A DNA stretch of 64,000 bases from Subtercola boreus (GTDB lineage: Bacteria; Actinomycetota; Actinomycetes; Actinomycetales; Microbacteriaceae), in assembly GCF_006716115.1 (NCBI RefSeq), contig NZ_VFOO01000001.1:3162001-3226000 (forward strand), given 5' to 3'. Made by a program: the position numbers and the translations under genes. Positions 19,441 through 21,650 of the stretch are shown one piece after another. Positions within the stretch are counted from its first letter, which is position 1; every line of letters starts with the position of its first letter. The notes beneath the pieces are model-generated. The model made no database searches, was not told the origin of the DNA, and was given only the letters and a program-made list of their open reading frames with translations.

Positions 19441-19893
19441 ATGTCGAAACTCATTCTCACGCACGAGGTCTCCGGCCTCGGTTCAGCAGGTGATGTGGTC
19501 GAGGTCAAGAACGGCTTCGCACGCAACTACCTGATCCCCCAGGGCTTCGCGGTGACGTGGAGCCGCGGTGGCGAGAAGCAGATCGAATCGATCAAGGCTG
19601 CCCGCTCCGCACGTGAACTCAAGACCATCGAAGAGGCCCAGCACCTCAAGCAGGTTCTCGAGAACAACGTCGTCAAGCTGTCCGTCAAGGCCGGCAAGGA
19701 AGGGCGCCTGTTCGGGTCCATCAAGACGAGCGCGATCGCCGACGCGGTGGCTGCTGCCGGCTTCGGATCGATTGATCGCCGCAAGGTCGAGATCACCTCG
19801 CCGATCAAGGCCACGGGCACCCACGAGGCTTCCATTCGCCTCCGTGACGACCTGAGCGCGACCATCACCATCCAGGTCGTGGCTGCAAAATAA
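19441..19893 (+). CDS. rplI: 50S ribosomal protein L9
   Basis: Elongated large-subunit protein. The 150-residue product has the N-terminal signature [20 protein letters not shown]-type loop and [12 protein letters not shown], a long connecting helix and the C-terminal domain. It is the last gene of the operon and is followed within 8 bases by a strong terminator. Confidence 0.97.
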
Positions 19894-19901
19894 GCTGTAA
19901 C

Positions 19902-19948
19902 CCAAAGGAGGGAGTCGCTGGAATGCGACTCCCTCCTTTGGCGTTTTT
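19902..19948 (+). terminator. Intrinsic terminator after rplI
   Basis: A perfect 17-bp stem (CCAAAGGAGGGAGTCGC and its complement) with a 6-base loop is followed by CGTTTTTG. It separates the ribosomal operon from dnaB. The left arm contains an AAAGGAGG sequence, like a strong ribosome binding site, buried in the stem. Confidence 0.95.
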
Positions 19949-19958
19949 GTCAAGTGTT

Positions 19959-20155
19959 TTGTACACAGGGCGTGTCGCAATCTCAACGTTCAACCGTGTG
20001 TTCAGACATCCGTCAGTCCACAGGTAGGGGAAAGACAAAATGGCTGGTCAAGAGGCTGTTGCCAAGAAAAATTAGTTTGTTGTACACAGCCGATTCCACA
20101 GGTTGTGCACAAGACGCGCCGTGTTTCCCGTCTTAATTCCACAGAGTTGTGCACA
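19959..20155 (+). promoter_or_regulatory. Row of DnaA-box-like nonamers before dnaB
   Basis: This fills most of the 380-bp gap between rplI and dnaB. Four TTGTNCACA nonamers (19959 and 20080 with A; 20103 and 20147 with G) and three NNTCCACA-type nonamers (20014, 20092, 20135) all lie on the plus strand. The actinobacterial DnaA box is TTGTCCACA, so the first class differs by one base. The stretch is more AT-rich than its surroundings. DnaA binding, perhaps controlling dnaB or titrating DnaA, is inference. Confidence 0.55.
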
Positions 20156-20273
20156 GGACGATTTGTGCCGGGTTCCGAAGGCTTCCTAGTCTTGGCCCGC
20201 AGCTCTCGCGTGTCATGTCGCCCGGATGTCAGACGGTGACGGTAAGCCTGAGACCACGAGAAGAGGAGTCCCG

Positions 20274-21650
20274 GTGTCGATAGCGCATCTCGGCCTGACC
20301 GGCGAAACGCGGTCGATCGGCGAGACCCGGGGCCACGAGCGCACTCCCCCGCACGACCTGCTCGCGGAGCAGAGTGCCCTCGGCGGAATGCTGCTCAGCA
20401 AAGACGCGGTCGCAGACGTCGTCGAAGTCGTCCGCGGTGCGGACTTCTACATTCCGAAGCACGAGTTCGTGTTCGACGCGATCCTGAACCTGTACTCGCA
20501 CGGCGAGCCCACCGACGTCATCGCGGTGACCGACGAGCTGACGAAGTCGGGCGACCTCACCCGTGCGGGCGGGGCAGAGTACCTGCACACGCTCACGAGC
20601 CTCGTGCCGACCGCGGCGAACGCGGGGTACTACGCATCCATCGTCGCCGAGAAGGCGATCCTCCGGCGCCTCGTGGAGGCCGGTACGCGCATCGTGCAGA
20701 TGGGCTACGCCAGCGAGGGCGAAGTGATGGACCTGGTGAACAACGCCCAGGCCGAGATCTACGCGGTCAACGGCAACACCGAGACCGAGGACTACGTTCC
20801 CCTGACGACCGCCGTGAACGCGGCCATCGACGAGATCGAGGCGGCCAAGGGTCGCGAGGGCCAGATGACGGGCGTGCCCACCGGCTTCGCCGAACTCGAC
20901 ATGCTGACCAACGGCCTGCACCCCGGGCAGCTCATCATCGTCGCTGCCCGCCCCGCGCTCGGAAAGTCGACGCTCGCCCTCGACTTCGCGCGCGCGGCAT
21001 CCATCAAACACGACATGCCCTCCATCTTCTTCTCGCTCGAGATGGGGCGGAGTGAGATCGCGATGCGACTGCTCTCCGCCGAGTCATCCATTCCCCTGCA
21101 GAACATGCGAAAGGGAACGGTCGAGAGCAACGACTGGACCAAGATCGCGGCCACCCGCGGGCGCATCAACGACTCGCCGCTCTACATCGACGACAGCCCC
21201 AACATGACGCTCGTCGAGATCCGGGCCAAGTGCCGGCGCCTGAAGCAGCGTGTGGGCCTCAAGATGGTCATCATCGACTACCTGCAGCTGATGACGTCGG
21301 GCAAGCGCGTCGAATCGCGTCAGCAGGAGGTCAGTGAGTTCTCCCGGGCCCTCAAGCTGATGGCCAAGGAACTCCAGGTGCCGGTCATCGCCCTGTCCCA
21401 GCTGAACCGTGGCCCCGAGCAGCGCGCCGACAAGAAGCCCGCCCTCTCCGACCTCCGTGAGTCGGGCTCCCTCGAGCAGGACGCGGACATGGTCATCCTG
21501 CTGCACCGTGAGAGCGCCTACGAGAAAGACAACCCGCGCGCCGGCGAGGCCGACCTCATCGTGGCCAAGCACCGAAACGGGCCCACCGCCACGGTCACCG
21601 TCGGCTTCCACGGCCACTTCTCGCGCTTCGCGGACATGCCGCACGCCTGA
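20274..21650 (+). CDS. dnaB: Replicative DNA helicase DnaB
   Basis: Hexameric 5'-3' helicase of the replication fork. I chose the GTG at 20274 (458 residues) because AGAGGAG sits 6 bases upstream; an in-frame ATG at 20226 has no clear site. The N-terminal domain begins DLLAEQSALGGMLLS. The RecA-like domain has Walker A PALGKSTLALD, the SLEMGRSEIAMRLL helix, Walker B VIIDYLQLM and ALSQLNRGPE. No intein interrupts it. It is transcribed away from the origin, in line with fork movement. Confidence 0.96.
   Translation: MSIAHLGLTGETRSIGETRGHERTPPHDLLAEQSALGGMLLSKDAVADVVEVVRGADFYIPKHEFVFDAILNLYSHGEPTDVIAVTDELTKSGDLTRAGGAEYLHTLTSLVPTAANAGYYASIVAEKAILRRLVEAGTRIVQMGYASEGEVMDLVNNAQAEIYAVNGNTETEDYVPLTTAVNAAIDEIEAAKGREGQMTGVPTGFAELDMLTNGLHPGQLIIVAARPALGKSTLALDFARAASIKHDMPSIFFSLEMGRSEIAMRLLSAESSIPLQNMRKGTVESNDWTKIAATRGRINDSPLYIDDSPNMTLVEIRAKCRRLKQRVGLKMVIIDYLQLMTSGKRVESRQQEVSEFSRALKLMAKELQVPVIALSQLNRGPEQRADKKPALSDLRESGSLEQDADMVILLHRESAYEKDNPRAGEADLIVAKHRNGPTATVTVGFHGHFSRFADMPHA

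Follow-up and report, generated by a model that had tools for sequence, protein, structure and literature searches.

Conserved, ordered array of seven predicted DnaA boxes upstream of dnaB in Subtercola boreus and other Microbacteriaceae

In mycobacteria, DnaA has been found bound, in vitro and in vivo, to DNA upstream of dnaB, in Mycobacterium tuberculosis by IDAP-seq and in M. smegmatis by ChIP-seq, and the M. tuberculosis I282T mutant combines weaker binding at this position with lower dnaB expression (PMC7738170, as excerpted). Caulobacter dnaB belongs to the DnaA regulon and has predicted DnaA boxes upstream (Hottes 2005, as recounted in the excerpted text of PMC8203912), and in E. coli, DnaA prefers boxes set 2 or 3 bp apart, where altering either box or inserting one base weakens binding (PMC11317965, in part). 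Here we describe an array of seven predicted DnaA boxes between rplI and dnaB of the actinobacterium Subtercola boreus (Microbacteriaceae). Like the Rv0057-region site of mycobacteria, which is DnaA-bound and linked to dnaB expression, the array is actinobacterial DNA upstream of dnaB; it differs in that Rv0057 lies upstream of dnaB there and the rplI-dnaB gap here, and in that DnaA binding is predicted here, the likeness drawn from the excerpted account being one of position rather than of box layout (PMC7738170). Caulobacter shares the predicted boxes upstream of dnaB but belongs to a distant phylum, and it too is likened by position and not by layout (PMC8203912, as excerpted). With the E. 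coli promoters that carry double DnaA boxes, purH and polA among them, the array shares the 2 or 3 bp spacing upstream of regulated genes, whereas the array consists of a triple (boxes 3-4-5), a double (boxes 6-7) and two outlying boxes, in fixed order and beside dnaB (PMC11317965, in part). Among the matches listed for open-licence PMC text, we found no description of a conserved array of several boxes ahead of dnaB in Microbacteriaceae; a DnaA-bound dnaB promoter is already known as a kind, and the ordered seven-box architecture is without an account among those matches.

The window, meaning the whole stretch of DNA analysed, is 64 kb long and covers bases 3162001-3226000 of the main contig, and positions given below are window positions unless called genomic. 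Seven DnaA-type nonamers, all ending in CACA and all on the + strand, occupy positions 19959-20155 (197 bp) of the rplI-dnaB gap, with starts at 19959, 20014, 20080, 20092, 20103, 20135 and 20147 and start-to-start steps of 55, 66, 12, 11, 32 and 12 bp. The preliminary description had reported seven same-strand nonamers of this type within 197 bp, and every one of them was located. Predicted boxes 1 (19959..19967) and 3 (20080..20088) read TTGTACACA, box 2 (20014..20022) reads CAGTCCACA, box 4 (20092..20100, 3 bp past box 3) reads GATTCCACA, box 6 (20135..20143) reads AATTCCACA, and boxes 5 (20103..20111, 2 bp past box 4) and 7 (20147..20155, 3 bp past box 6) both read TTGTGCACA. The copy at 20103 can also be read on the - strand, shifted by one base, TGTGCACA being a palindrome. 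A double-box test found E. coli-type spacing on the same strand for boxes 3-4 (3 bp), 4-5 (2 bp) and 6-7 (3 bp). Four of the boxes depart from TTRTCCACA at position 5, and three depart from it within positions 1-3; because of these mismatches the affinity of the boxes is uncertain. The DnaA DNA-binding domain encoded by this genome matches the solved structures 3pvp/3pvv (3pvp E 6e-29), which we take to be the corresponding domain of M. tuberculosis DnaA.

The flanks of the array agree with those given in the preliminary description. The array is bordered upstream by an intrinsic terminator (19902..19941, + strand) with a 17-pair stem and a T run, the predicted end of the rplI transcript; the chance expectation of the terminator scan is 0.8 sites of this kind in the region, though apparently not of 17-pair length. 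The neighbouring genes, rplI (19441-19893) and the replicative helicase gene dnaB (whole listed ORF 20226..21650, + strand; PF00772 and PF03796), have their identities from Pfam, and the RplI protein is 88-97% identical to that of eleven genomes of the genus and 92-97% identical to that of six Subtercola loci. The ATG listed as the dnaB start (20226) probably lies too far upstream: the GTG at 20274..20276 (+ strand), the likely true start, follows a good ribosome-binding site (AGAAGAGGAG, 20259-20268), and in tblastn searches the alignments with many relatives start around residue 13-17 of the long ORF.

Such a density of boxes had been called improbable by chance, and the counts agree. The window holds seven matches to TTGTNCACA where 0.43 are expected and where 100 dinucleotide shuffles yield at most 2, and five of the seven fall in the rplI-dnaB gap; genome-wide, these five belong to a total of 36 matches, against 18 for a reversed-pattern control. 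A genome-wide comparison of box density with oriC also placed the array first, since of the 47 matches to TTRTNCACA the densest group is the array itself, with five in 197 bp as against four in 181 bp in the dnaA-dnaN gap.

The preliminary description had made its reading hinge on the conservation of these nonamers in related genomes, and the boxes are kept: at least five of the seven stand in register upstream of dnaB in 92 of 110 Microbacteriaceae loci, and all seven do so in 37. The loci are the DNA upstream of dnaB from 110 of 120 genomes of the family, our own genome and two congeners included; the ten genomes left out (G016, G022, G023, G071, G094, G098, G114, G116, G121 and G133) are mostly fragmented or most divergent. 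A box was counted if it had T or C at position 4 and CACA at its end, and the register allows steps of 54-57, 64-68, 10-13, 10-13, 31-33 and 11-13 bp. Because these steps and tolerances were derived from the same 110 loci, the weight of the result rests on the other-strand and shuffle controls: on the opposite strand none of the 110 loci reaches five boxes, the best being four, once, and of 330 dinucleotide shuffles none reaches five, none exceeds three and four attain three. The remaining 18 loci fall short of five boxes in register, and nine of these 18 also fall short of four. In the same 110 loci, the coding strand has 350 copies of TCCACA and the other strand 58, and the common inter-box steps of the family (55, 12, 67, 44, 32, 43, 23, 11 and 65 bp) are the steps of the window or sums of them, a 2-bp step in this tally being an artefact of CACACA. 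Across 12 Subtercola genomes, conservation is 0.931 in the box cores (42 columns) versus 0.740 between them (155 columns; p = 4e-8, with neighbouring columns not independent).

Among the 92 family loci with at least five boxes, boxes 1, 2, 4 and 6 are each in register in 81, box 3 in 79 and box 5 in 78. Box 7 is the best kept, being present with T at position 4 in all 92, and its family consensus, TTRTCCACAGG, is the closest to TT(A/G)TCCACAGG; boxes 1 and 5 prefer TTGTGCACA, and those other than 1, 5 and 7 are looser. A scan of 404 kb of our own genome gives a register score of 7 at the dnaB array only, the next-best score being 4, within the dnaA-dnaN gap, and the other strand reaching no more than 3. 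In 29 dnaA-dnaN gaps of the family, the register reaches 4 boxes in 4 gaps on the forward strand and 11 on the reverse, and 5 boxes in one gap (reverse); the register is not wholly peculiar to dnaB among DnaA-rich regions. Taken as a sequence comparison, these results indicate that the DnaA-type regulatory array of dnaB is real and conserved.

Conserved elements other than DnaA boxes also occur inside the array. Between boxes 5 and 6, 61 of 81 family loci carry GGCGTTTC, which is absent from this genome, where the linker (20112..20134, + strand) contains CGTGTTTCCC, a related sequence, instead; the interval from box 2 to box 3 carries CTG(G/A)TCA in 44 of 81 loci and in this genome too (CTGGTCA, 20044..20050, + strand). 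A loosely defined inverted partner of box 2 is found in 45 of 81 loci and is absent here, and the family consensus has further conserved bases between boxes 1 and 2. These motifs would suit an array made of the sites of another protein, and two sub-threshold Rfam miRNA matches on the terminator would suit a structured RNA. No Rfam family reaches its gathering score, however, a fold analysis of the alignment (60 of 76 rows) gave no consensus fold, a weak test because the column-shuffled control was also at zero, and the strand and shuffle controls speak against a chance grouping; we regard chance, a structured RNA and the sites of another protein as very improbable explanations of the array.

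Comparison of the family loci points to a putative promoter immediately downstream of box 7, with a -35 element (TTGTGC, 20163..20168, + strand) 7 bp past the box and a -10 element (TAGTCT, 20187..20192, + strand) after a spacer of 18. A TTG 7-8 bp past box 7 with TANNNT downstream is present in 76 of the 92 loci versus 0.4% in shuffled sequence. The TTG lies 7 bp past box 7 in 65 of these 76 loci and 8 bp past it in 11, and the spacer from the -35 hexamer to TANNNT is 18 nt in 47, 17 in 28 and 16 in 1. A generic promoter scan of the region found no promoter, so it is from this comparison alone that the putative promoter is drawn. If transcription starts ~7 nt past the -10, the array would span about -240 to about -45, with the centre of box 7 near -48.

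This arrangement bears on the direction of control. Since the boxes lie upstream of the putative promoter and do not cover it, DnaA would most likely activate dnaB, and we give even odds to activation through the array. That DnaA binds the boxes and instead represses dnaB appears rather unlikely: DnaA does repress some promoters, its own included (PMC8203912, as excerpted), but no box overlaps the putative -35 or -10, and the mycobacterial mutant with weaker binding has less rather than more dnaB expression, though that mutant may act otherwise (PMC7738170, in part).

Rearranged genomes separate dnaB from its usual neighbours, and their comparison indicates that the array goes with dnaB, not with rplI, and mostly persists when dnaB is far from the origin. 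Of 29 rplI loci without dnaB in reach, two have no usable downstream DNA; a box group directly behind rplI is absent from all of the remaining 27, on which ground an rplI-linked element was rejected. In three loci (L026, L041 and L045), boxes 1.3-2.2 kb downstream of rplI are those upstream of dnaB on the same contigs (L184, L206 and L205). Of 11 listed dnaB loci that have no rplI in reach, eight retain five or more of the seven boxes; L255 and L258 have three, and L267 has one.

Where dnaB and dnaN share a contig they mostly lie tens of kb apart (20 kb in G061, 53 kb in G027), and the genomes in which dnaB has moved far off largely retain the array. In G012, dnaB is 454 kb from dnaN and keeps six of seven boxes; in G013, G118 and G119, the two genes are on different contigs, with dnaB at least ~100 kb from the contig ends and seven of seven boxes each; and in G066, whose dnaB and dnaN are likewise on separate contigs, dnaB is at least 90 kb from the contig end and at least four boxes remain. 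The register is lost in G103 (L258; dnaB 114 kb from dnaN, three of seven) and in G025 (L267; dnaB ~77 kb from dnaN if the 0.93-Mb contig is circular, one of seven), so that four or more boxes stay in register at five of the seven far-moved dnaB genes and fewer at two. L258 instead carries boxes on both strands, and no box of the counted type occurs in L267. G041 has a second, distant dnaB-like gene, L296.

This linkage also bears on whether the array is a DnaA titration site, or a datA/DARS-like site changing the nucleotide state of DnaA, that stands beside dnaB by happenstance. The E. coli elements datA and DARS carry helper-protein sites, and Streptomyces has DnaA-box clusters outside oriC; none of datA, DARS1, DARS2 and the Streptomyces clusters is known to be tied to dnaB. 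The array resembles them as a cluster of DnaA boxes off the origin, some of these clusters having helper-protein sites, whereas what defines datA, DARS and titration sites is that they change the nucleotide state of DnaA or the amount of free DnaA. Its rank as the densest TTRTNCACA group of the genome, its extra conserved motifs, which recall the helper-protein sites of datA and DARS, and its place ~22 kb from dnaA-dnaN would all suit such a role, given that E. coli DnaA boxes cluster near the origin and that titration has been argued there (PMC12371093, as excerpted). A pure titration site, however, needs neither linkage to dnaB nor a promoter, and both the tracking of dnaB when rplI or the origin is elsewhere and the promoter-like pair locked to box 7 therefore count against this role, which we judge unlikely, although titration may be an additional effect of the array.

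The preliminary description had placed the origin some 20 kb away, outside the window, and an oriC-like dnaA-dnaN gap does lie ~22 kb to the left of the array, beyond the window, with dnaA and dnaN on the other strand. Cumulative GC skew over 404 kb of our own genome has its minimum at ~3152 kb (genomic), beside dnaN at 3158.6 kb, while the array is at 3182 kb and does not coincide with the skew switch. Thirty dnaN loci, one of them (L138) without dnaA in reach, gave the 29 gaps counted above, most of which have boxes on both strands, and of the 11 gaps whose sequences were printed, 10 show tandem boxes followed by GTTAA and AT-rich DNA, the exception being L153. The array is like this actinobacterial oriC in having many DnaA boxes in a short, lower-GC gap; it differs in strand use, the boxes lying on both strands of the dnaA-dnaN gap and on one strand of the array, and in having a putative promoter in place of an AT-rich stretch. 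Inspection by eye of our own sequence and the family consensus found no AT-rich unwinding stretch past box 7, where a promoter-like stretch stands instead.

These observations leave little room for the array as a second replication origin, an unwinding element or the real oriC. Its box number equals that of the dnaA-dnaN gap, the rplI-dnaB gap has a GC content of 0.53, below that of the genome, and the array is near the origin, but the sequences of the dnaA-dnaN gaps, the skew minimum beside dnaN and the putative promoter past box 7 all oppose an origin role. So does G012, whose distant dnaB keeps its boxes and whose skew samples, though noisy and weak as evidence, change sign at dnaN and not at dnaB. 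We consider an origin role highly implausible, and the rplI-dnaB gap as oriC was rejected on GC skew and the dnaA-dnaN sequences.

Beyond the family, the order, class and phylum sets comprised loci from the best 30 matches per search, after six loci without the dnaB N-terminus, two without a dnaB match and three with short upstream DNA had been dropped; L298 was counted in both wider sets. Among these best matches, a register of at least three boxes is reached by 19 of the 24 loci that represent further families of the class (opposite strand, 1 of 24) and by 18 of 50 loci in the order-plus-phylum set (opposite strand, 4 of 50); these 18 come from the order (14 of 22 loci), the wider phylum (3 of 27) and the class (one locus). 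Single-base shuffles of the wider sets reach three boxes in 0 of 148 cases, and the full seven-box form was found in no locus outside the family among the best 30 matches per search. L304 and L315, from another family of the phylum (f29), have same-strand DnaA-box pairs upstream of dnaB.

Boxes occur at other sites as well. The gap between a rhomboid gene and crgA, the latter named from its translation, contains TTATACACA and TTATCCACA (L001:6140-6245; genomic 3148140-3148245). DNA downstream of the rhomboid gene was examined in 20 relatives (L372-L391) of 38 with a match, crgA adjacency being established only in our own genome: 19 of the 20 (the exception is L375) carry one or more boxes, and in 12 two boxes share a strand and stand 11-13 bp apart; the pairs of L390 are on the opposite strand. 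Because Rv0011c is crgA, this site may by analogy correspond to the DnaA site that mycobacteria have at Rv0010c-Rv0011c. The longest dnaA ORF is preceded by a copy of TTATCCACA 94 bp upstream, the true dnaA start being maybe ~30 codons further in, and an inverted pair of perfect TTATCCACA, 89 bp apart, is found far from the origin (G000:C1:2527801-2527898).

We put the probability that the rplI-dnaB array is a DnaA-bound element regulating dnaB at about 70%. Of the three readings offered in the preliminary description, namely a titration site, a DnaA-controlled dnaB promoter and an unwinding element, the promoter is well supported because the array tracks dnaB, because the promoter-like pair is fixed to box 7 and because mycobacterial DnaA is found upstream of dnaB, whereas the unwinding element finds no support, given the oriC-like dnaA-dnaN gap, the skew minimum and the array's retention at most far-moved dnaB genes. 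We propose that the ordered same-strand array would serve the dnaB promoter: DnaA would bind cooperatively, as a short oligomer, to boxes 3-4-5 and 6-7, whose close spacing amounts to about one helical turn; this oligomer would sit upstream of the putative promoter, whose -35 starts 7-8 bp past box 7; and helicase supply would thereby follow active DnaA. For S. boreus itself, we infer the binding of DnaA, activation over repression and the role of boxes 1 and 2.

A broader proposal, which we hold as doubtful though worth stating, is that the array may be an ancient actinobacterial module in which an oligomer of active DnaA on phased boxes, together with a second factor that owns GGCGTTTC and CTGRTCA, would couple helicase supply to initiator level and feed back on DnaA in the manner of datA and DARS. 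Together with oriC and the dnaA-upstream and crgA sites, it might then form a core DnaA regulon inherited by Micrococcales and Mycobacteriales from a common ancestor. We know of no DnaC-like loader in actinobacteria, nor of a counterpart of datA or DARS.

Our findings bear on how actinobacteria match helicase supply to initiation, and the conserved, ordered set of boxes suggests that the initiator DnaA controls the amount of helicase made. They further suggest that the mycobacterial ChIP site has counterparts across a wide group. The array would offer a long natural site for a DnaA oligomer outside an origin, and as this fixed seven-box set persists across most of the family, the predicted link from DnaA to dnaB could be tested by point mutation.
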